Positions 2,359-57,989 of a DNA stretch of 64,000 nt are shown here, one piece after another. Location: NCBI GenBank assembly GCA_963575645.1, contig OY754470.1, positions 12,098,501 through 12,162,500 of the forward strand. The letters run 5' to 3'. The DNA is from Xanthostigma xanthostigma (Eukaryota; Arthropoda; Insecta; Raphidioptera; Raphidiidae). The position numbers were made by a program, and so were the translations under genes. The notes beneath the pieces were generated by a model. The model was not told the origin of the DNA. It was given only the letters and a program-made list of their open reading frames with translations, and made no database searches. How positions within the stretch are numbered: position 1 is the stretch's first letter; every line of letters begins with the position of its first letter.

Positions 2359-2600
2359 TACAGCGCCTTGATAGAGACTAGATTTAGTCGAAACGTTGGC
2401 AAATAAATTTTTTTAATTAATCACACTGCATTAGAAGTCTATTGTTCCCAAGAAATTTTCTAAATATAAAAAAATAGTGTTTTTGAGCTCAAGGAATTTG
2501 AAAAAAGTGGGAACTTTTAAGTTTGATCTTTATACGGTCAACCGTTTTTTAGATTCTCAATATCACCTCCGCTCCGTTTATCAGTAAATCTAAAAAAAAT
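2359..2600 (+). repeat. Repeat with hammerhead-like motif, then family E copy
   Basis: 2367-2399 contains CTTGATAGA, a perfect 5-bp hairpin GACTA-GATT-TAGTC (2376-2389) and GAAAC (2390-2394), the layout of a hammerhead ribozyme core. From about 2455 to 2600 the sequence (GAGCTCAAGGAATTTG ... CGGTCAACCGTTTT) resembles 12460-12600, so it is a dispersed family (called E here). Neither has coding potential. Confidence 0.5.
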
Positions 2601-3790
2601 TAAACCCCACCTCTTAAGCCATAATACTTGAACGCCCGTTATTTTCAGCTATTTTTATTGTGTAGTCACAATATAATAAAAAAATAAAATAAAACAATAA
2701 ATCGATAATCCACTTGACCCCAATTGATCGACACTTTTAATTTTATTAAAATTATTGTCTAATAACCTTAACATAATAATAAAAATATAATTAAGAAAAC
2801 ATGAAACGTACTTATGCTAAAGTTAACATATTATTTTTTAAATTCGGTATCGAATAATTAATTTAATAAATTATTCAGACCACACATAAACAGCATCCTT
2901 CATCTGGTAGTAATAAAGTGTTAATGTAAAAGTTATACATACAAAAAAATACAGTGCACACAGTTTTATTAAAATTTCGTAGACAAGACCATTTATCATA
3001 TCTATACACCTCTTTGATTGCAGTTCAGAATATTATGTACAAAAAACTATCTAAATCTATTCACATAAATCTTTACACACCGGTGAATGTATAATATTTT
3101 AAATAAATAGAAAGGTAGACACACACCAAACGCGAATCATGAGGAATTTGTATTAACTACAGTTTCTTGCGATTTAGTTATTGTACACAATTTTTACAAA
3201 ACTGAGGAGATATTTTAATTAAGTATTCTTTAAGAAAAAGACATGTTGAATTTAATGGACAAAATAAATCTTTTGGTTTAGAAGCTACAGTTGCTTAAGT
3301 TTCTAAGAAAAATTAAAACAAGTATGAAAGTCTAAAATTTATACTAAAAGAGATTCAAATATGTTTGTGTGTCTTGTTGCTTGCTTTTACGTTAAATTTA
3401 AAAAAAAAATTACATCATCGCGTTTCTCGAAGTTTATATAAAATAATAGTTTTGACAAAATTAACAAAAAATGCAAATAATTTTTTAAATTTTCTAAGGC
3501 TTTTAGAAAGAGAAAGCTGAGTCCACTGCAAGGGCACTTCTAAATATATTTTGGTTTAGAGGCTGAAGATATTTCTAGAAAATACCTTTAAACCATAGAA
3601 ATACAGACGTGCGCGTGTACCCATTGCAATCAGCGTAACTTGTCCTACAGGCACTATTGAAAAAGATGGGTACCAGAATGATTTTTTATTTTGTCAATAA
3701 TTTTATTAAACGACTAAAATAAAACATCCATATGACGCAAAAATAAAATAAAATTTAAATATAATAATTAATTGTATTTTCAATAATACA
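2601..3790. other. AT-rich unassigned sequence
   Basis: Long AT-rich stretch with many A and T homopolymers. I found no open frame of interest, tandem array or recognised repeat. Confidence 0.5.
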
Positions 3791-4363
3791 AAAAATATTT
3801 AAATCTTTGATTAGCTTTTTATAAAATCTTTCAAAATTATTAATGATTATCAAATTTTTTGATAATCATTAATAATTTTAAAAGATTTTGTAAAAAGATT
3901 AAGAAGGAAGAATCCCGGTGGCATAGGATCGATGAACAAAGCAAATACTGAAGGTTTTTATTGCATTTTTATTGTCTGACGTTTCGGCACTCTTTATTCC
4001 ATCTTCGGAGAATCAATCAGACACATTTATACAGTTTTCAGTAAAAATCTAGTCGTTCTTTCAAGAAAAATAGTAATTCAATACCTTTGATGACATTTTT
4101 TATTTTAATTTACTTTATACATAACAATAATACTGAAAAAACGGACAGCATTGATTCTCCGAAGATGGCATAAAGAGTGCCGAAACGTCAGATAATAAAA
4201 ATGCAATAAAAACCTTCAGTATTTGCTTTGTTCATCGATCCTATGCCACCAGGATTCTTCCTTCTTAATCTTTCAACATTTGAACAGGATCATCATCTCT
4301 CTAAATTATTAGAGTTTTCTTTCACAATTTTATAAAAAGCTAATCAAAGATTTAAATATTTTT
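3791..4363. mobile_element. Foldback element with nested inverted repeats
   Basis: Outer arms 3791-3827 and 4327-4363 are exact 37-bp inverted repeats. Inside lie a second inverted pair (about 3895-4018 and 4148-4268, sharing ATAGGATCGATGAACAAAGC) and a small palindrome of AATTATTAATGATTATCAAA at about 3835-3893. Each inner arm carries a YCGAAGA ... GAAACGTC motif (see findings). No coding capacity. The class is uncertain; a Penelope-like or foldback origin is possible. Confidence 0.75.
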
Positions 4364-4370
4364 TTTAAAT

Positions 4371-4500
4371 TATAATTAGCTTTTTATATTTTTTAGATCA
4401 GTTCTGAAGAAGGTCCAAATTCGGATTGAAACGTTAATGTATTAATTATATTTTTTTGTTAATATATTGTCTGAAAAGTTGGTCGATAATTTTATTTATT
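4371..4500 (+). repeat. Hammerhead-motif repeat unit, copy 1
   Basis: About 130 bp nearly identical to 46796-46921. It contains CTGAAGA (4404-4410), GGTCC (4412-4416) able to pair with GGATT (4423-4427), and GAAAC (4428-4432), then TTAATGTATTAATTATA and GGTCGATAATTTTATTTATT. The 46.8-kb copy has inverted arms; here the left arm is partly lost. Confidence 0.7.
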
Positions 4501-4701: not shown

Positions 4702-5062
4702 AAAGAGCATGTCGAGCGCATCCAGAGACGCTCATGCATCTCTTATCGGCATGCAGTCATTATGCAAGTTGACATTCATTGTCACAATCCTGCTCTAAGG
4801 GTGTTATATTACCACTTGAGACATCATTACGGAGTTGATAAAATTCCTGTTTAACCTTATGTTCCCGGCAATATTGAGTCCGTTGTCGAGAATGAATCGT
4901 GTAAGATTTTCTGGCACTATTAATTCAGTCCTACCAGACAACTGTCAGCTACAAAGCCTGATATAGTTATTCTTGATAAAACTACGCAAGCTATGTATGC
5001 CATCGAGTTTTCAGCTCCTGTTGAAACGAACATAGCCGCGAAGGAGACTAAGAAAATGGGAA
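4702..5062 (+). pseudogene. R2-type LINE endonuclease-domain remnant
   Basis: A single frame runs through the region with two in-frame stops (TAA 4852-4854 and TAA 4921-4923). It reads EHVERIQRRSCISYRHA, then VLYYHLRHHYG, VVENESCKIFW, KPDIVILDK (4954-4980) and AIEFSAP (4999-5019). The W..., PDIVxxD and IEFSAP pattern is what I know from the C-terminal restriction-like endonuclease domain of R2-type non-LTR retrotransposons, where the Asp is catalytic. The reverse transcriptase part is missing upstream. At about 5057 the frame is broken by a family A element. Only about 115 codons survive, so this is dead. Confidence 0.75.
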
Positions 5063-5654
5063 ATAATATTAATTTAGGTCAAAATTCACTTTTCAAAATT
5101 CTACAATATATTTTCGTTTTGAGGTCACCCGAATCCAAAAAACATATTTTTGGAGAAAGTCTGTGCGTCTGTTTGTCCTTTATACACGATACAGATGAGC
5201 GGATTGAAACTAAATTTCGTGAATATATGTTTGCTATGCAAATATGAAGAGTTCTATTGTTTTGGAAAAAATCGGCGAATGCGCAAAATAAATATATGCA
5301 ATAACGTTATTTTTTTTATATAATAATGGTATACTTTTCATAACGATTTATTATTTTATTTATTTATACACGAAAGCTTTGTAAAAAAATTATCAGCTGT
5401 TCTTGTGTTCTATAGATCTGTTAGAAAGAAATTAGTTAAGCATGCTTTGATTAATTTTTACATGACGTGAAACATATTATGTAGGTAACCATGGTAACGA
5501 ATGGCAAATATCATATTTAATACTAGCCGTTACCCGCGTCACCGCATGCCTTAACAAAAATTTTATTTTCTATAATATTATAATATGTCAAATGTCAGTA
5601 TATTTCAAGTTGGAATGGTCCCGTCGCCCAATTGACTGGATTTTTTTTGTAAAA
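5057..5654 (+). repeat. Family A interspersed repeat, copy 1
   Basis: Matches the reference copy at 16830-17490: TTTAGGTCAAAA-TCACTTTTC, the GATGAGCGGATTGAAAC block, GTTACCCGCGTCACC and the terminal GTTGGAATGGTCCCGTCGCCC. Its 5' terminus is damaged where it meets the R2-like remnant. A minus-strand copy follows at 5975-6585, so the two form a large inverted pair. The family has no protein and I cannot assign it to a known class. Confidence 0.85.
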
Positions 5655-5974
5655 GATAAAATTCCTCGTATGAAAAGCCAGCTTTAGTCTACTTTATAGT
5701 TGATAGCCATGTTTATATTTGATATTAATGATAGCTGTCATAACATACTTAAAATATAAATATTTAAACTGTCTACGCGCGAGTTGAAATGAAAGGAGCG
5801 TGATTGATTGACAGGATTTCGTGAACTCTTGTGATATTATTGTCATCAATCACTAAACGGTAACTAATCATGAAATCTACACATACATTATTATATTGTT
5901 AACTTTTTACCAGTTTCATAAAAAGCGTGTCTCTATACTTTAAACATGAAAATATAGTGACTATTTTGTTGATT
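5655..5974. other. Spacer between inverted family A copies
   Basis: About 320 bp AT-rich spacer; I see no gene or repeat in it. Confidence 0.5.
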
Positions 5975-6585
5975 TTTATTACAAAAATTCTAGCTACTTG
6001 GACGACGGGACTAATTAAAAAATATTGACATTTCATATTATATAATAAAGAAAATACGTGGGTAACGGTTCGCATTAAATGTTATGATATTTGCGATTCG
6101 GTTTGCATGGTTACCCACATATGTTATCACGTCATGTGTAAAAATTAACCAAAGCATGCTTAATTTCTTTCTGACAGATCTACAAAACGAAAGAACAGCT
6201 GATTTTTTTTATTTTCAAAATATTTCCGAAACTATAAAGTTTAAAAAACAAATTTCTACAAAACTTTCTTGCAAAAATAAATAGAATAATAAACCGTAAT
6301 TAAAAGTATACCATTATTTAAAAAAAAAACAACATTATAGCATATATCTTTTTTGCGCACGCGCCAATTTTCCCCGAAAACAGTAAGGCTCTTTATATTT
6401 GCATATTAAAACATCCTCCCAAAATTTAGTTTCAATCCGCTCATTCGTTTGAGTTGTATTGTTTTTACAGACAAAGAGACGCTCCAGACTTTTTCCAAAA
6501 ATATGTTTGTTTTGGATTCGGAGGATCTCAAAACAAAACAAGATTTCGGGTTTAGGCAATATTCGTTGGTCAAAACTAGTTTTGC
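5975..6585 (-). repeat. Family A interspersed repeat, copy 2
   Basis: Reverse complement of family A. The 3' end (GGGACGACGG) is at 5975-6020, the GTGGGTAACGG block near 6060, the TTTCAATCCGCTCAT block at 6429-6445 and the AACTAGTTTTG end near 6575. Short open frames in it are shadows. Confidence 0.8.
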
Positions 6586-7682: not shown

Positions 7683-8234
7683 TTTTACCATTCCAACCCA
7701 AAAGTGGGGAATGGTATTAGTTTAGGTCAAAAATCACTTTTCAAAAGTTTTACAATATCTTTCCGTTTTGAGGTCACCCTAATCTAATAAACATATTTTT
7801 GAAAAAACTCTGTGCCTCTGTTAGTCTGTGAACACGAACAGGTCAACCGGATGAGCGGATTGAAACCAAATTTTGGGAGGATGTTTGGTATGCAAATATG
7901 AAGAGCCCTATTGTTTTTGGGGAAAATCGGCGCATGTGCAGAAGATATATATATGCTAAAACGGTATTTTTTATAATATAATAATGATATACTTTTCATA
8001 ACGGGTTATTATTCTAATTATTTTTTCAAGAAAGTTTTGTTGAAAAATTTTTTTCCTAAACTTTATAGTTTCGGAAATATTTTGAAAATAAAAAAAAAAT
8101 TATCCGCTTTTTTGCTTTATGGATCTGTCAGAAATAAACTAAGTAGTTAGGCATGCTTTGATTAATTTTTACATGACGTAGAACATACTATAGGTATGTA
8201 GGTAATCATGGCAACGAATAGTTAATATCATATT
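7683..8234 (+). repeat. Family A interspersed repeat, copy 3
   Basis: Starts with the intact 5' end TTTTACCATTCCAACCC followed by GGGGAATGGT (a hairpin-capable ACCATTCC/GGAATGGT pair) and runs to GGCAACGAATAGTTAATATC. The distal ~100 bp of the family is missing. Confidence 0.85.
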
Positions 8235-9454
8235 GAATAAAATGTCCAAAAAATTCTTTGAAAAATGTGAAAAAAACCCAAATCATCTCACTAACTAAAT
8301 TGAAAACTGTGAACTGCCAACCTTAAAAAATATAAGCATAAACGAGTACATATTCCTATAAAAAATTGATCCCAGCAAAATTAATATCATATATTGTAAA
8401 AGCGAATTATACAAAAATGTTTATGTAGAAAGTGTAAATGTAAAAGGTGGCCTAATAAGAGTGATACAACTTTTAATTTGTATTGTGATAAATATTGTTT
8501 TTTCTTTCATCCTTGCCAAATTAAGACACTGACTATCCACCATTACACCGGTACGTAATGCTTCTGGAAAGAGGAAACTATTAAAATTGACATAATGGTC
8601 GTTGAATAATTAATGATAATGAACGATTTCTAAATGCACTGTTGAATGATATATCTTTGCACGGTGATTTGTCAAAGTTTATCTATTGCTTTTGTTAAAA
8701 AAACAAACGAAAAATAATTTGAGAGTTGATAAAGATGTGAACTTTTAAGTCGCATCATTCTTATTGGTAAACCTGAAATTATCTGAAATTGTTACTTAAT
8801 GATAAATAAAGAAACAAAATAATAATAACTATATGGCATGTTAATTATTGTATAAGTAGGTAACTCAAAACATTCCTTTCAAGCTTCTACTAAACAAAAT
8901 AACACAACAAAAATCTTTCAACAGAAAAACAGAAGCCTTGTCAATTTGTTGACAGGTTTGTGAACTGCCGACTGGTTAATGTTAGGGTTTCAACAAATGT
9001 CATATTTTGAATAAATGACAGCTACCTCTTTTACTTGACACCACCTTTTTATCTTATCCGTTTAACAAAATCTTGCCGAAAGCGAGATTTGAAAAAAAAT
9101 CCGTATTGGTATTCAAAAAAACTGTCTAACCTAGTATTATTTGTTCAAACGGCTTCAAAAGAATTTTTAAATAAATGACAAATTTTACCGATATTGTGGG
9201 AAAGCACTTAAATGAAATATTACTCAGTACTGCTGTTAATCACAAATATTCTTCTGTAAAAATGAGTACTGGGACTTATTTTGCCGACATAAGATTTTTT
9301 GTCAAATGCTCAAGATCTCCGTGTAATCTTTGTTGTTAAAGATGCTTTGTGTGACAAGCAGTTAATAACATATTTTAAAATTTAAATGAAGAATATAATT
9401 TAAAGAACATATAATATTACGCATGACATTTCGTTCTAATGACATACAATATTT
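8235..9454. other. Unassigned AT-rich sequence
   Basis: No recognisable gene or repeat. Several stretches mention no open frame above chance. Confidence 0.4.
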
Positions 9455-16260: not shown

Positions 16261-16830
16261 GGGTTCCGTACCTCAAAAGAAAAAATGAACTCTTATAGAA
16301 GAATCACTTGTCTGTCTGTCTGTCAAGACTCTTGGGAATCAAAACATATATGGTACTTCCCGTTGACCTATAGAATCATAAAATATGACAAGAAGCAATG
16401 TCTTTATAGCACAAGTAAAGGGAAACATTCTAAAAACTGTAAATTTGTATAAGTTACATAAAAAAATAATGTTTTTAACCGCAACTACATGCTACGCACG
16501 TACACAGAGTAACATGTTCTATTCAAGTACAAAACAAGCGTCCGCTACCGGTGCGTTTATACAGCACAATATGAGAACTCTCGCATATAACACGGTACGA
16601 CATTTAGCCTAGCAGATATAGCTACGATGTACAATACAGTTCAGTAGTCTATCTGAACTCATTGCATTTACACGCTTAGTTGGCAAACTGTCCTTTGTGG
16701 ACAACAATTTTCCAACGGCTAAGCGGGAAAAATCTTTGAGACTCGATTCCCGTGATTCACGAACTATTTACATACCTACAAGTTTATACGGAACCCTCGG
16801 TGCGCGAATCCGAATCGCACTTGGCCGGTT
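16261..16830 (+). repeat. Lepidopteran dispersed repeat, GGTTCCGTACCTC type
   Basis: Begins GGGTTCCGTACCTCAAAAGA, has the CTGTCTGTCTGTCAAG stretch and GTACTTCCCGTTGACCT, and ends CGGAACCCTCGGTGCGCG ... GCACTTGGCCGGTTTTT. I recognise both ends from many lepidopteran genomic sequences. A minus-strand copy is at 60031-60548. The middle (about 16495-16640) has no counterpart in that copy and may be a replacement. Family A copy 6 begins exactly at its terminal T run. Confidence 0.8.
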
Positions 16831-17490
16831 TTTACCATTCCAACTCACAAGTGGGGAATGGTACTAGTTTAGGTCACAAATCACTTTTCAAAAATTTTAC
16901 AATATCTTTCCGTTTTAAGGTCCCCCGAATCCAGAAAACACATTTTTGGAAAATCTCTGTGTATCTGTTAGTCTGTTTGTCTGTGAACACGATACAGATC
17001 AAACGGATGAGCGGATTGAAACCAAATTTTGGTAGGATGTTTGGTATGCAAATATGAAGAGCCTTATTGTTTTTGGGGAAAATCGGCGCATGCGCAGAAG
17101 AGATATATGCTAAAATGGTATTTTTTATATAATAATGGTATACTTTTCATAACGACTTATTATTCTATTTATTTTGTCAAGAAAGTTTTGTTAAAAAGAT
17201 TTTTTTCTAAACTTTATAGTTTCGGAAATATTTTGAAAATAAAAAAAATCATCCGCTCTTTTGTTCTGTCAGAAATAAACTAGTTAGCATGTTTTGATTA
17301 ATTTTTACATGACGTGGAACATACTATGTAGGTAGGTAACCATGGCAACGAATAGTTAATATCATTTTGAATACTAGCCATTACCCGCGTCACCTCACGC
17401 GATATCAGAAATTTAATTTCTTTATTATAATCAAATGTCAATATTTTTGAAGTTGGAATGGTCCCGTCGCCCAATTGGCTGGAATTTTTT
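16830..17490 (+). repeat. Family A interspersed repeat, copy 6 (reference)
   Basis: The most complete copy: 5' TTTACCATTCCAACTCACAAG with GGGGAATGGTACTAG, central GTCTGTGAACACGATACAG and GATGAGCGGATTGAAACC, GGCGCATGCGCAGAAG, CATGACGTGGAACATACTATG, ACCCGCGTCACCTCACGCG and 3' GTTGGAATGGTCCCGTCGCCC-AATTGGCTGGA plus T run. ACCATTCC at the 5' end has an inverted partner both 17 bases later and near the 3' end. Short open frames in it differ between copies, so it is non-coding. Confidence 0.9.
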
Positions 17491-29585: not shown

Positions 29586-30478
29586 ATTACCATACCAACC
29601 CACAAGTAGGAACGGTACTAGTTTGGGTCGATAATCCCTTTTCCAAATTTTATAATATTTTTTTCGTTTTGAGGTTTCCCAAATCCAAAATAGTTGGCAA
29701 AACCAAAAGTGCACATCCCGCAAGTTTTCCACTGTATAATAAAAATTAAAAAAAACAATTGAAAAAATATTTTAAAAAGATTAAAAATTTAAAGAAATAA
29801 ATAAGTAAAAATTAAAGAAAAAATTAAAATACTTGAAAAATTAAAAAAAAAATAGATAAGAAATACATATAATATAATAATATATAAATATCAAGTGGAA
29901 TAAAATGGAATAGAAAAACATGAAAATCAATAATATTGCCAGGAATCACTAGAATCGCTAGTTTAGCGGTAATATTATGTGCAAAACATATTTTTAGAAA
30001 ACACGATACAGGTCAATCGGATGGATGGATTGAAACCAAATTTTTGGAGGATGTTACATACGCAAATATAAAGAGCCCTATTGTTTTTGGGAAAAATCGG
30101 CACATGCGCAAAAGAGATATATAAGTATGCTATAATATTGTTTTTTATATAATAATGGTATACTTTTCATAACGGGTTATTATTCTATTTATCTTTTCAA
30201 GAAAGTTTTGTTAAAATTTTTTTTTCATTACTTTATATTATGTAGTTTCGGAAATATTTTGAAAATAAAAAAATCAGCTTTTCTTACACCACGCGGAACG
30301 TATTATACAAGGTAATCATGCCAACGAATAGCAAATATCTTATTTAAAACTGACCATTACCCGCATCACGATATCAGTAATTTTATTCTCTTTGTTATAA
30401 ATACTATATCAAATGTCACTATTTTTGGAGTTGGAATGGTCTCCTTGCCCAATTCGCTGGAATTTTTTTGTACAAAAT
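29586..30478 (+). repeat. Family A copy 7, split by a SINE
   Basis: 29586-29695 is the family A 5' end (ACCATACCAACCCACAAGTA ... GGTTTCCCAAATCC). The family resumes at about 29983 (AAAACATATTTTTAGAAAAC) and runs to GTTGGAATGGTCTCCTTGCC-CAATTCGCTGG. The gap is a SINE in minus orientation. Confidence 0.85.
29696..29945 (-). mobile_element. SINE, copy 2, nested in family A, head lost
   Basis: Same 3' tail as 13937-14271 (AAAATAGTTGGCAAAACCAA read on +) and the same A/T-rich body to TATCAAGTGGAATAAAAT. The tRNA-like head is lost: A and B boxes are not present. Confidence 0.75.
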
Positions 30479-31919
30479 AGCAAATTTGGTGATAAATAGA
30501 TAAGCAAAAATTGTTCAATTTTGAGACCGTGATTTAACAATAGTAGTTTTTTACTTATGGGAACTTTTAAAAATCATTAAAGAAAAATTTTCAAATAGAG
30601 TATTAATTCCTTTGGCATTTCTTTCATTATAACATCAAAAACGAAATATTTTCTGGTTTACAAATTCAATCCGGGAATATACGGAATATATTTTTTTTTA
30701 ATATGAGAATTTATAATATTTCAATATAGATAATAATTTTTTGTTTTTGATTTTTACTTTGCTACTTGCTTCGAGGCAAATCTTGAGGCAAAGTGAATGT
30801 CTATTAGACAGTCCAAATTTTGCACGTTTGCCGTTTGTTGCAATTTTAAATCAGAACACTACCTTGCGATGCTATTTAAAAATTCTCTGCCCTGTGTGCC
30901 ACTGTTTATTATAGGCATTGAAAAACGATTATCTGGCAATTCATAGAAGTTGAATTAACTTATAATTAAGAAATAACAAGTTTCTTTATCTCAACATTAT
31001 ATCTGAAGTTTTTTTCTACTTATTCTTGAAGGCAACTTTATAGATGAACAAACGTATTGTAAAGAGCGCGTTTATAATTTTCTATAAGTAGATGTTAATA
31101 AAAATATAATAATTGATTGTAGAACTTAACCATTATTCTCTAAAAAAATACAAATTATAGAGGCAAGGAAATAATAGATCCTGGTGGGTTATTATTCGAG
31201 CTATATTCAAATAATATGCAATTTCAACTTTAAAAACGTGATTGATACCTTTCTTAGGATTCAAAATTCCGTATAATGATCTATAATCAAATATACTAAA
31301 ACGTATTTTTCTGTGTAACCAAATTATATGTTAAAACCGCAAAATTTATTCAGGTATATTATTAGCAGTGAGTTCTGTCGTTTTAGAATGACTCACGGCG
31401 ACATGCTAAAGCAGTAAACCATGTAATATATATTCTGTTTTAAAGTTTTTGCAAATGTGTAAATTTTGCATTCGAGACAGAAACTGCTGTCTGATTACCA
31501 GAACTTTAAGACAACAAACAACAAATATTGGTCAGTTTTGACTTGGCTAAATCAATAATCTAATGATAAGAACAAGAAAACTCAGTGTTTGTATTTGTTA
31601 AAATCTTAATAAAAAGATTCTTTTTATAAAAGATTTTATTTTAAGTATGTGTTTTAGTTTTTAATTTAGAGTCTGGCCCGTTAACATATCCTAAATCTTA
31701 TAAATGGCCCTTTAGAAAAATCAGTCTGACATCTCTGCACTAGATTAGCATACCCAGCACAAACGAGCAAACATTGCAAGTTTCGTAAAGTGCAGTAGAC
31801 ATAGAGCAGTTGCGGCTCAGCAGGATTAGATAGACATTGTAGGTAACCGACTTACGGTCGTTGCTGGTTGCAGGTGCTGATCCAATGTACGCTACTCCGT
31901 TAAATAACACGAACAGGGT
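30479..31919. other. Long AT-rich stretch, nothing recognised
   Basis: About 1.4 kb with no supported feature. Confidence 0.5.
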
Positions 31920-35030: not shown

Positions 35031-35115
35031 AAACATCGGCAAAATACTTCTTTTAATAACATTTAGAAGTATTTTGCCGATGTTTCGAGAAATCTGTTTC
35101 CTTCCTCCAGTGTTA
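35031..35115 (-). repeat. Perfect 21-bp inverted repeat with hammerhead-like motif
   Basis: AAACATCGGCAAAATACTTC-T (35031-35051) pairs exactly with 35065-35085. Next to it, on the minus strand, CTGGAGGA, a 5-bp stem GGAAA-CAGA-TTTCT (35101-35088) and GAAAC (35086-35082). The stem includes one G-U pair. Confidence 0.7.
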
Positions 35116-46701: not shown

Positions 46702-46775
46702 TATTTTGTTTGGATCAAAATAAGCAAATTTATTGACATTATTCAAATCTTTGATTAACGTCTGATTAGAACTCT

Positions 46776-46921
46776 TCAATAAATAAAATTATCGACCAAT
46801 TTTTTATATTTTTTAGATCCGTTCTGAAGAAGGTCCAAATCCGGATCGAAACGTTAATGTATTAATTATATTTTTTGTTAATATATTGTCTGAAAAATTG
46901 GTCGATAATTTTATTTATTAT
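46776..46921 (+). repeat. Hammerhead-motif repeat unit, copy 2, with inverted arms
   Basis: Arms AATAAAATTATCGACCAATT (from 46781) and AATTGGTCGATAATTTTATT are inverted. Inside: CTGAAGA (46824-46830), GGTCC (46832-46836) pairing with GGATC (46843-46847) across a 6-nt loop, and GAAAC (46848-46852). Nearly identical to 4371-4500. Confidence 0.75.
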
Positions 46922-49212
46922 TGACATTATGGTCACAACATGCGTAAATATCTCGAAAATCATGAAATTTTAACTGCGGCATGGCTTGTTATTTTGACAG
47001 CACATGGCCCAACCTATCACCAGTTAAAGCCCTACGAAAAATATCGTGGACACACAGATGATGGCAGTACAATAATAATCGAAAACCGGACCTGAAGCGG
47101 ACTTACATGAGGGGTAGAAAGGAGAATATTGCAACATCTTGCTCCAACAGCCAAAGAACATAAAAACAATCTGTATTGCTTCGCTTTACTGCTGCAGGAT
47201 TTTACTTTGTCGTCGTTGTGTCCTAGTGGTCACAACTGTGTGGTCATTTCTATATCGTACCAACATTTATAAAGAATCTTATTGTGGTCACTCTAATGGC
47301 TTTGTGCAATGTGTATATATGGACGGAATGAGACACGCAGTTTCTATACACATTCGTTGCCAACCGACAAGTTACTTTTCTCATCAACAAAATCATTCAA
47401 GTTCGAATCTAACTCGCACGGCGAGAGTTCCGCATTCGAAAACAATAAAAATTAATTTGTAAATTTACATATCGCATAATTAATCAGCAATAAATGTTCA
47501 CGCATTGAACTCCGTCAATTTTGATATTTGTTTGTTTGTCTTTCTTCCCAAATACAGATTTTGGAACAAGTAAGTCCCAGCTATGACGCAACCCACTGAA
47601 TTTGTTAAAGTATATTATATATTCTTGAAGGTAATTGAATTCTCTACAACTCCCTCTTAATAAATTTCTTTCTCAGATAAATAGTTTAGACAACATGAAG
47701 GAATGTTTGATGAGAAATATGAGGTAAAAGTCTTTTTTTAGAAAACTTTCACTTTTCTGGGGCGTGTAGTTCCAAAAACGGTTGAGAATTTAAAAAAAAA
47801 GTGTATAGAACGAAAACTAAATAAAATTTTATGAGCTTTAATTTGGCATAAGAATTTTTTCCCATGAGACGTACCGTTTTTGAGACCTAAGCTAAAACCC
47901 TAAAAGTAGTACCTTCTTGTTGCTTCCCTTCCTCCGGCTCACCTCCTAAACGTCAGGACTTTTGATATGTTTACACCCTGAACAAGTAAAGGTTCTCATT
48001 TAACTCTTTTTTTATATTCCGAAATATCTGCGTCATTTGTAAATAGATTATAATTATTCTATATAATAGAGAGAATCTTTAGGATGGTCTCACAAAATTT
48101 TTACTTAAATCGGTTCTGTACTTTTTCATATATTTTTTGTGTAACAAACTACGTATTTGAAAATCGAGTAAGAGGAGGAAAATTTTAACATATAATGAAA
48201 GTATAAGTTTAATGTGAAAAACTTTATTAATTAAATTGGCGCCAACGTCAATATTTCATTATTTTCCACTTTTTAGTGACTTTTTCGATGGAGGTTTAAT
48301 TTTTTCAAAAGTTGTTATACTCGAAAACTATTGCTTTGTATTTCTTGTAATTTTTATTAGATTCTCTATCAGTATGAATATTTTATAAATTTTTCATCTT
48401 CAAAGAAGAAAGGGAAAGGAATATTTTTAATAAAAACCATGAGATCTAAAATAAAAAGAAAGACAATATTTATAGCTATGCTAAATTTCAAATCAAAAAC
48501 ATATTATATAGTTCGTGAGAAAATCGATCATTTCATGCAAACAAAGGCCCACACATAGTTCTCTTTACCATTTTAATTAAAAGCCGTAATGAAACATCCC
48601 TTAAAATAATTTATGTTTTCAATAATTCCAGAACGTTGGTGTTCGGAATTATTGTAATATAAAGCTGCATGGAAAGGGTCGAAGCTGGGCGTTGCGTTAT
48701 TACTGTTTCCTGAAACTGAAATAGAGAAGGTATGCTGTATTTTCAGTGAGTATATCTAGACTCTAGAGTAGGTATTGCTGCGACACTTGCACTGGCTATA
48801 TCAAGTTGTATTAGTACTTGAATCGTTCGCCAATTGGTTGGTTGCTGCTTGTTAGTTCTCTAACTTGTCTATTGCAATAATATTATCTATTATGTTCGAA
48901 ATTAAGAAATGCTGCTAGGGTATGAGGTCTCTGTTTCCAGATATTGTCGTCAAAAGAGCTATCGTTAATGTCTTAAATTGTAAACTTCAAATATTTTTTA
49001 ATAATAATTTAATAAATCTATATAGTAAACATAATAAGAAAGAGAAATTTGTGTATAGTCAGCAACTACTGGACCGATTTACAAAAATATAGAAATGGTA
49101 ATAATAATGATGATGATGATGTGATATGATGATGATAAATATTTTTAAGCTTACGAAACAGTACACACCCAGAGTATTCTGTTCAATTAATTGTTCTTAT
49201 TGGTGTTCTTTA
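46922..49212. other. Unassigned sequence
   Basis: A 107-codon open frame at 47139-47462 has no family features. 47745-47900 resembles generic lepidopteran repeat wording (CGTACCGTTTTTGAGACCTA). (ATG)n lies at about 49105-49137. Confidence 0.35.
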
Positions 49213-52457: not shown

Positions 52458-52840
52458 TTAATTGTCAATATTTGCAACTTTTAAACCATCACCAGAAACA
52501 CTATCTTGACGACCATTAATGTCTAAAATAAAGTATTTATCACTTTTCGAAATAACACGAAAAGGTCCACTATATGATGGTTTTAAACTTGAAAAAGCGT
52601 TAATGTTTCGCACAAACACAAAATCTGCATTAATTAGTGGATTTGTAAAGTCAGGAACATTTTTATCACAATAGAACTTCTTTAAACTTGTTTTTAAACG
52701 GTTAATGAAATCATTATTTGTAGAATTCAAAAAATTCCGCAGGAAGTCTAAGAGAAGATCCGTATAACATCTCAGCCGGACTAACGTTAACTTTGTTACA
52801 GAAGCAAACTTGTATAATACGCTATTTTTAAAAATAATAA
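52458..52840 (-). pseudogene. Ty3/gypsy integrase C-terminal remnant
   Basis: Two minus-strand frames, one base-shift apart. The upstream frame carries VNVSPAEMLYGSSLRLPAEF (52759-52782 for SPAEMLYG) and stops at TAA 52714-52716. The downstream frame carries NNDFINRLKTSLKKFY, a FVFVRN block, SYSGPFRVISKSDKYFILDI and a C-terminal SVSGDGLKVANID before the stop. SPAE(M/L)xYG and the (S/Y)xGPFxV...K module are the end of the integrase core and the GPY/F domain of Ty3/gypsy pol. Everything 5' of this (protease, RT, RNase H, catalytic core) is absent. 145 bp of 3' leader and the LTR follow. Dead by truncation and frameshift. Confidence 0.9.
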
Positions 52841-53623
52841 GTACATATAAGACAAAATTTAATATTAAAACCATTAAATTCTCTTAGGAAGAACGACTTT
52901 TATATATCTGTAACATTGGATGACGTGTTGTCACCAGAAAACTTTCCGTCTGTTATCGTTCTAAAACAGTAATTAGCAACTAGCGTTCCGCCTTCGAAGG
53001 TTTTTTTTCTGACCCAGCGGGTCAGAACTCAGAAGTTAAAGCACTTTTTATTCAGGTAAAACTATAGAAATAGGGCCTAATAAATTGTTTGCGACCCAAA
53101 ATTAATTTTCAATCGCTGTTCTATGGGCCAGCACACACAATAAGCTACTTTTTGTTTTAACAAAAGCGTGTGATTTAGGACATTAAATTTGCGATTTGAG
53201 GAGTACGCCACTGGAAATTTCTTGTGATACATTAGTTGTGTATTTTAGTGGAGTGTGAGGCCGTCCTCTAATAGTTATTTTTTGTCATCTCCTTTTCTGT
53301 TATTTATATATAATGATCATGGACAGATGGAAGACCAATCCTCAGAGGATTGAATCTGATCCAATTGACTCAGCAATAAGCCATTATTATTCTATGCTTA
53401 CCTGAGGATCTTCAAGCAACTTAATTGCAAAACTTCTGAAAATCGCTTGTGTCCTTTACCCTACGCTCATGTTTATAACACAAGCATTAAGCCACATAGA
53501 CACACGGCACGGCCGTATCCAAAGCACATAGGTGGAACGCGTTTTCTGAGTCTCTCTCCCTGCACACATGATACTGGCACACTCGTTGACATAAATTTTC
53601 CTATATTCGTCGCCGGTGTCATT
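52841..53623. other. Unassigned sequence
   Basis: A CTGACCC-AGC-GGGTCAG hairpin lies near 53010-53026. No gene recognised. Confidence 0.4.
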
Positions 53624-57087: not shown

Positions 57088-57478
57088 TTTCAAAATTTTA
57101 ATAATTTTTTGTTTTGAGGTCCCCCGAATCCAAAAAACATATTTTTGGTAAAACTTTGTGCGTCTGTTTGTGTGTTGATCTGCTAGTTTGTGAGCACGAT
57201 ACAGGTCAAACGGATAAGCCGATTGAAACCAAATTTTGAGAGGATGTTTGGTATGCAAATATAAAGAGCCCTATTGTTTTTGGGGAAAATCGGCACATGC
57301 GCAGAAGAGATATATGCTATATGTAGATAACTATGGTAACAAATAGCAAATATCTACTAGCCATTACCCGCGTCACCTCACGCGATATCAGAAATTTTAT
57401 TTTCTTTATTATAGTACATCAAATGTCAACATTTTGAAGTTGGAATGGTCTCGTCGCCCAATTGGCTGGATTTTTTTT
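57088..57478 (+). repeat. Family A copy 8, internally deleted
   Basis: GTTTTGAGGTCCCCCGAATC through CGGCACATGCGCAGAAGAGA, then a jump across about 230 bp to TAACTATGGTAACAAATAGC, ACCCGCGTCACCTCACGCG and GTTGGAATGGTCTCGTCGCC. The 5' 60 bp is missing. Confidence 0.85.
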
Positions 57479-57989
57479 GTTGAAATCGATAATATCACAA
57501 ACTTGAAATTTTTTGGAGAATCTTTGGATTTCTATAAGTACTTAAAAAAATCCCAAAAATGGGTAATTTGCAATGGAATTTTAAACATAAATTATGCCGC
57601 TGCCAAGATGACGTAGATAATTATTCGTCCTGCGATTGGCTGACTAGATCTACCGTTGTATCACGCCAATTGATCTGTCTAATTGAAAGGAAAACACGAA
57701 GCAGATAATTTATAAACATCTCTTTCTATAGATAAAAAAATGTCATTATATAGCGGTTCATGTTCAGCGTTTAAAATACATGTTTCTTTAATATTCTTCT
57801 TTGCAATTAAGACGAAGGATTTATACAAAAAGTTGGTTTACTTTATTTGCTTATGTGTGAAAATAATATACCTATTTAGGAACATTGCTTATTCTTATAT
57901 TGACGCAACAATATAATATATTTTAGAAAAATCGCAGAAGAACTACACCTTTTTCAAAATTAGTAATTTTATTTCATTTTTACCAGTTT
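57479..57989. other. Unassigned sequence
   Basis: No feature recognised. Confidence 0.4.

Follow-up and report, generated by a model that had tools for sequence, protein, structure and literature searches.

Minimal type-I hammerhead ribozymes of Penelope-like elements (PLEs) were reportedly described by Cervera and De la Pena in 2014 and by Lunse, Weinberg and Breaker in 2017. Published accounts describe PLE hammerheads as devoid of helix III and possibly cutting as dimers, introns are known in the pseudo-LTRs (pLTRs) of these elements (PMC11722881), and a review (PMC7761336) calls the role of the hammerhead a mystery. In PAc (Poseidon of Anolis carolinensis), cleavage by the hammerhead takes place only when protein is present, and insertion can do without the ribozyme (PMC11167929). 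Retrozymes are described as tandemly repeated units of about 150-400 nt.

The window (the whole stretch of DNA analyzed, 64,000 nucleotides of the Xanthostigma xanthostigma genome) contains six places that had been predicted to share one hammerhead-like layout, and all six strings were confirmed at their positions (Table 1). They represent four families: A (4404 and 46824), B (3981 and 4159), C (2367), and D (35082). The common layout holds for the five sites of families A, B, and C and breaks down at D (35082-35110, minus strand). Families A, B, and C are very probably fossil pieces of PLEs, with a minimal type-I hammerhead in the pLTR, insertion by target-primed reverse transcription (TPRT), and, in B, an intron; this reading draws on the fold, its covariation, the copies across the genome, the genes next to B and C, the B intron, the target-site duplications, and the tails. 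The evidence supports assignment of all three to the minimal type-I hammerheads without stem III known from PLE pLTRs. The class itself is already known; A, B, and C are further members of it, those of B and C having changed cores.

Table 1. Features read in the window; positions count from its first letter, and rough E-values are those of the covariance model described in the text.
Feature	Position	Strand	Remarks
C hammerhead-like motif	2362..2410	+	Divergent core (C)UUGANAAA; rough E 0.07, rank 5
B target-site duplication	left 3885..3897, right 4327-4339		Left ATTTTGTAAAAAG, right ATTTTATAAAAAG; 12/13 match
Single B insertion	3898..4323		Minus arm ~3895-4014 head-to-head with plus arm ~4018-4323
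B hammerhead, left arm	3981..4008	-	Stem II with one mismatch; model match 3965-4014, rough E 5.1e-5
Spliced exon junction GACAGCATTG/ATTCT	4144..4158	+	Directly 5' of the B ribozyme core
B hammerhead, right arm	4159..4186	+	Core CCGAAGA (U4 -> C); model match 4153-4202, rough E 2.9e-7
A hammerhead, second copy	4404..4432	+	Model match 4398-4448, rough E 4.4e-6; repeat arm 4381-4500
Site D, rejected	35082..35110	-	Overlaps an arm of the fold-back 35031-35085
A target-site duplication	left 46731..46742, right 46919-46930		TATTGACATTAT; spotted by eye, letters verified
A insertion, entire, as read	46744..46918	+	27-bp perfect inverted ends
3'-splice-site-like TTTTTAG	46810..46816	+	7 nt upstream of the A core
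A hammerhead	46824..46852	+	Model match 46818-46868, rough E 7e-8 (best in the window)

The A hammerhead at 46824 has a CUGAAGA core, stem II GGUCC/GGAUC with all five positions paired, GAAAC followed by GU-U, and stem I CGUU/AAUG with all four positions paired; its core is an exact match to the conserved CUGANGA ... GAAA ... UH. The second copy belongs to the same repeat (95.8% identity over 120 bp between 4381-4500 and 46801-46919) and pairs at three of the four stem I positions. The two B sites are arms of one inverted structure; stem I is paired at three of four positions in the right arm, the left arm being left out of that count. Among 45 B copies, C replaces the conserved U4 in 37, one has the canonical CTGACGA, and seven have other cores. 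The C motif has stem II GACUA/UAGUC, stem I GCC/GGC (three of four positions paired), and ACGU, with TTACAG ending 4 nt upstream of the core. The CUGANGA wording of the original prediction is not supported for this site: the core in an alignment of 21 copies is (C)UUGANAAA, the 'UAGA' of the window being private to the window copy. This core is longer than the canonical one, lacks a clear G8, and differs from it in its first half. In view of the changed cores (U4 in B, G8 in C), the B and C ribozymes may be weak or dead. As for stems I and III, which had been left open, stem I is present in A, B, and C with three or four of four pairs; stem III is not, as GAAAC is directly followed by GUH in all three, so that a same-molecule stem III with a loop is absent. 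The ACGU at the stem III position is self-complementary.

A relaxed core motif, defined as [CT][CT]GANGA, a 4-bp stem, and GAAAC, was found in the window at three sites without mismatch and at four with at most one; 100 order-2 Markov shuffles averaged 0.09 and 0.48 such sites, respectively, and never had more than 2 of either kind. Its CTGANGA version yielded two sites vs. 0.03 in the shuffles. C and D do not fit the relaxed motif. Rfam hammerhead models gave no match over the entire window, either at gathering scores or up to E = 10, and none on short stretches around 4404, 46824, and 4159, an outcome that the original prediction had counted against itself. This silence is uninformative, since the same models also missed 19 of 20 relatives fetched from the same genome, the sole match (L108) scoring 16 bits vs. 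a cut-off of 48.5. An Rfam MIR7533 match at 3960-4207 (75.6 bits, cut-off 230) was rejected, as it merely reflects the B palindrome.

Our own covariance model drew on 14 further hammerheads from the genome and contained no A, B, or C sequence; it comprised ten of the 20 fetched types, families E and F, and two members of family G. The types left out (L099, L103, L104, L105, L109, L113, L114, L116, L117, and L118) were excluded in some cases for poor pairing and in two for likeness to A; L115, maybe a distant relative of A, was kept. In an unfiltered search of the window, the model placed 46824, 4159, 4404, and 3981 at the top (rough E 7e-8 to 5e-5) and C fifth. Rfam hammerhead models overlook the minimal class of PLEs, and a small model made from one genome recovers such hammerheads. 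In the 14 chosen sequences, 93.5% of 108 cells are paired vs. 53.0% in shuffled ones, and the covariation score is 0.966 vs. 0.195, a value reached by 0 of 500 shuffles (slid versions, 0.06-0.20); the number of pairs changed on both sides, seven, is unremarkable, being reached by 208 of the 500 shuffles. The 20 types were taken as one copy per stem II type from the listed matches, unselected for pairing and with an exact core by design of the search. Stem II has on average 4.65 of five pairs in all 20, vs. 2.62 when arms are swapped between types, and stem I has 2.80 of four vs. 1.59. Compensatory change, asked for in the original prediction, is strong in stems I and II of both sets, and the hammerhead-type core was borne out at five of the six places by the fold, the covariation, and the covariance model.

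The sixth place, D, was rejected as a hammerhead: its core is altered (CUGGAGGA, GAAACAUC), stem I has only one of four pairs, its ACAU is not self-complementary and cannot pair with itself, and it is missing from the 39 matches of the covariance model up to E = 10 in the window. The fold-back that it overlaps (seen within window positions 35031-35110) has perfect arms of about 20 bp, AAACATCGGCAAAATACTTC and its reverse complement, and is perhaps the end of another mobile element. Two further observations concern other parts of the window. A repeat of about 500 bp, unrelated to the hammerheads, is present in at least six copies in both orientations (5053-5663, 6056-6538, 7683-8239, 16830-17490, 29999-30486, and 57088-57480). 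A 141-aa open frame at 52458-52883 (minus strand) has an end resembling, by eye, the C-terminal part of an LTR-retrotransposon integrase.

Copies of the three families are dispersed over the genome (623 Mb searched; the window is part of the same assembly). A 30-base pattern for A, with one two-fold position, had 1497 matches and a 23-base stem motif for B had 42 in 33 loci, including the window, the reversed controls giving 0 in both cases; for C there were at least 49 matches (40 of 199 candidates scored). The general pattern CTGAYGA-N10-20-CGAAACGT matched 2039 times vs. 11 for the reversed pattern, with about 20 different stem II sequences among the first 100 matches listed. About 60 of the 100 listed, counted by eye, had the GAAAA/UUUUC type of stem II (e.g., G000:C1:2590961). 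Four patterns searched in IMG/VR for relatives yielded 0 matches each.

Comparison of the B copies revealed an intron next to the ribozyme. Unspliced copies read GACAGCATTG/GTAAGT...CTAG/ATTCT-CCGAAGA and spliced ones GACAGCATTG/ATTCT-CCGAAGA; the intron is 143-144 nt long, with both ends present in five copies (L010, L019, L020, L027, and L030), and its 3' splice site lies 5 nt upstream of the ribozyme core. Among 34 B arms with a readable start, 16 are spliced, 15 are unspliced, and three begin inside exon 2; four of the spliced arms are changed at or near the junction, and the minus arm of the window retains only four bases of exon 1. Both B copies of the window derive from spliced RNA. In A the intron is only a candidate, no spliced copy of this family having been found. 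A ribozyme right behind a 3' splice site is not mentioned in the portions of the PLE literature searched and may be in print elsewhere.

A YAG 4-7 nt upstream of the core was found in seven of the first eight families (chance at random positions, 0.093), a count made on families of common ancestry after the pattern had been noticed. With the criterion fixed before reading, it was found in ten of the 20 types of the second set (binomial 3.8e-6), which is partly dependent, L106 being family H and L103, L104, and perhaps L115 resembling A. In three of the ten misses, YAG stands at 3, 13, and 17 nt, respectively; the other seven show none up to 20 nt. A 3' splice site beside the ribozyme as a universal rule was rejected, given the ten of 20 types. 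An intron is proven for B only.

The hammerhead core CUGANGA is the reverse complement of the 3' splice site UCNUCAG. In RNAfold predictions, the intron end pairs with the core in A and in unspliced B; in the spliced B RNA of the window, a long stem, begun by GCAUU of exon 1 and AAUGC, closes over stem II but pairs a few core bases, too. Against 300 shuffled intron ends, such masking is unusual in A (0.003 and 0.027) and unspliced B (0.040) and unremarkable in C (0.307 to 1.000), F (0.240), G (0.283 and 0.087), H (0.233), and I (0.530); the intron-end fold of E (0.070) does not touch the core. Masking of the core by the intron end was accordingly discarded as a general rule.

The arrangement of the copies points to their mode of insertion. 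In 21 of the 33 B loci (all except L011, L012, L015, L019, L024, L029-L034, and L036), two arms stand head to head with their 3' ends outward. An exact flank word of at least 10 bp is common to both sides in 20 of the 21 pairs vs. 5 of 420 mismatched combinations; because of these common words, each pair is most simply read as a single insertion. The duplication around the window pair was spotted by eye and its letters were verified, the longest exact common word being only 8. All 21 pairs have one tailed and one untailed end, with a tail of about 47 nt on the left in ten and on the right in 11; in the window pair, the minus arm is untailed and the plus arm carries the tail (~4277-4323). Among the 12 single copies, six have repeated flanks of 11-14 bp, five of them being tailed (L012, L019, L024, L033, and L034) and one untailed (L030). 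By eye, the A pairs of L033 and L041 resemble the B pairs, as does the insertion with 46824. On the left, this insertion has an inverted tailed 3' end (46744-46804; tail 46744-46777, matching the tailed end in L033), and on the right the hammerhead arm with an untailed end at 46918/46919. The B insertion of the window lies within a palindrome (3787-3857 with 3858-3897 and 4340-4367) resembling the upstream part of A, so that a B element seems to be nested inside an A element, likewise in L033. A cluster of 5' ends at the ribozyme cut site, which would be a sign that cleaved RNA was used, was not seen among the B arms. Mean base differences within pairs and between loci, compared with a single source RNA in mind, were 4.50 and 4.16, the former inflated by a miscaught L009 arm.

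Instead of two starts of reverse transcription (RT), snap-back self-priming of one cDNA could generate head-to-head insertions, as proposed for rotifer PLEs from palindromic junctions (PMC3846280). Several observations agree with it: the junction in L010 is palindromic, the arms in L017 begin at the same point, and the splice state is the same in both arms of all eight informative pairs, as expected from one source molecule. However, a snap-back copy must be nested in its template, and hand tabulation showed that the untailed arm extends further 5' than the tailed one in 14 of the 21 pairs (the excess is 4 nt in L016, 8 nt in L037, and at least 13 nt in the rest of the 14), five pairs being nested, including that of the window, and two equal. 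As the tailed arm of these 14 in turn reaches about 47 nt further 3', neither arm copies the other, and most B pairs therefore need two separate RT starts. One of the single copies (L030) has an untailed end as well, and in vitro the PAc protein extends both strands of the target (PMC11167929). Snap-back priming is thus unlikely as the source of these pairs, and two RT starts are preferred.

Genes next to the copies were found for B and C. In L029, ORFs resembling RVT_1 (22.1 bits, well below the cut-off of 29.6; E 1.4e-4) and GIY-YIG (22.5 bits, just below the cut-off of 22.6; E 1.4e-4) are followed after 200 nt, on the same strand, by the B hammerhead. Elsewhere in this locus, a family E hammerhead is situated about 510 nt downstream of an ORF with YVGQT, taken by eye as GIY-YIG, which had no Pfam match. 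A genome search with Pfam GIY-YIG gave at least 37 matches (150 of 521 candidates scored), and 30 loci were cut out. C-type motifs follow GIY-YIG ORFs that score above the cut-off in L051 (38.2 bits; motif 525 nt downstream) and L053 (32.7 bits; motif 422 nt downstream); no RT was seen beside the motif in these short loci. In L054, C-like flanking DNA in which the motif was not recognized follows the GIY-YIG match, and in L050 the C motif is on the strand opposite to it. These neighbors uphold the Penelope-like origin first suggested from the hammerhead core alone. Phmmer searches with the RT and GIY-YIG ORFs found no useful match among solved structures.

Canonical hammerheads were found downstream of GIY-YIG on the same strand in L049 (family F), L056 and L058 (G; L060 is the same place as L058), and L055 (H); none was seen in L050 to L054, L057, and L059. 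Of the 18 loci of one PLE group, some overlapping one another, 16 carry a family I hammerhead about 250 nt downstream of GIY-YIG; it was seen by eye and then counted with a pattern made for this family. Its host ORFs match both RVT_1 and GIY-YIG (tested in L061), and it has the 8-nt self-complementary AUGUACAU where other families have ACGU. PLE-associated hammerheads with a different stem II were located at L029 6552 (-), L049 2178 (+), L055 894 (-), and L056 2254 (+), and in L061-L078. For A, none of the 31 loci compared showed a GIY-YIG ORF together with an A hammerhead; with no coding neighbor found, its membership in PLEs is argued from the hammerhead, the tails, the head-to-head pairs, and the duplications. 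Pieces of the A 3' end, without the A hammerhead, occur in five of the 31 loci (L029, L051, L072, L074, and L077).

The missing coding relative of A would also suit non-LTR retrozymes, which are small, non-autonomous, and propagated as RNA circles; they, too, have type-I hammerheads and are reported from many animals including insects (PMC7229834). Retrozyme hammerheads are canonical, though, and the copies read here lack helix III, are dispersed and either 5'-truncated or arranged head to head, and show no tandem units of 150-400 nt, B and C adjoining GIY-YIG ORFs, which makes such an origin very unlikely. Least of all can the families be taken for MITEs, i.e., short terminal-inverted-repeat DNA transposons whose palindromes only resemble hammerhead stems: the 27-bp perfect inverted ends of the A insertion at 46824 and the long inverted repeats formed by many B copies would fit, but in all 21 B pairs the inverted ends differ, a tailed 3' end being matched with an untailed one, six of 12 single copies are 5'-truncated with repeated flanks, about half of the B arms lack exactly the intron, RT- and GIY-YIG-like ORFs adjoin a B copy, and the hammerhead core is kept while the stems covary, so that this explanation is extremely improbable.

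Under the preferred PLE reading, the RNA would fold into a stem I of 3-4 bp, a catalytic core, a stem II of 4-5 bp, GAAAC, and GU-H, without a stem III of its own. Two copies, in a tandem transcript or on two RNAs, could share a stem III through ACGU and be cut as a dimer; this action is deduced from the self-complementarity of ACGU, the anatomy, and the literature. The ribozyme would be self-cleaving. The elements insert by TPRT that begins at either of two sites some 47 nt from each other, close to where the next ORF starts. Both target strands would have been primed in 21 of the 33 B loci, giving two 5'-truncated head-to-head copies, one per start site, within one duplication; about half of the B copies, both window ones included, came from spliced RNA. 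The order of these events is likewise what we infer. A bolder proposal, in our opinion rather unlikely, is that the ribozyme is built onto the start of exon 2, that splicing decides its folding, so that it cuts only spliced RNA, and that insertion copies the remaining RNA. In A and B, the intron end would pair with the core and hide it, as predicted; exon 1 in spliced B RNA would supply pairing able to extend stem I; and insertion would start once at each of the two sites, on two target strands.

With thousands of copies in many families, splice states, ends, and duplications are directly readable in this genome, and its copies make both splicing-dependent folding of the ribozyme and priming of both strands from two fixed start sites testable. 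Specialists may find the tail rule and the placing of the ribozyme beside the intron worth following.

Compared with the known minimal hammerheads of PLEs, those described here share the core, stems I and II, the lack of helix III, the position in the pLTR, an ACGU compatible with dimers, and thousands of dispersed copies; they differ in the C at position 4 of B, the longer core of C without a clear G8, and the palindrome AUGUACAU replacing ACGU in family I. The PAc report (PMC11167929) likewise describes a hammerhead with stems I and II by the start of the ORF, extension of both target strands, and two RT start sites that define the tail. Unlike there, it was counted here how often an insertion joins a tailed to an untailed end (21 of 21), and the PAc hammerhead overlaps the start codon, whereas that of B is found some 55 nt before a possible one. 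The Penelope families of Adineta vaga (PMC3846280) also have inverted pLTRs standing head to head, an optional tail on one inverted pLTR, duplications of 8-10 bp, and a pLTR extending about 12 codons into the ORF. There, self-priming, probably on an antisense template, is the explanation offered; here, in contrast, spliced sense RNA was copied in about half of the arms, and 14 of the 21 pairs are non-nested.
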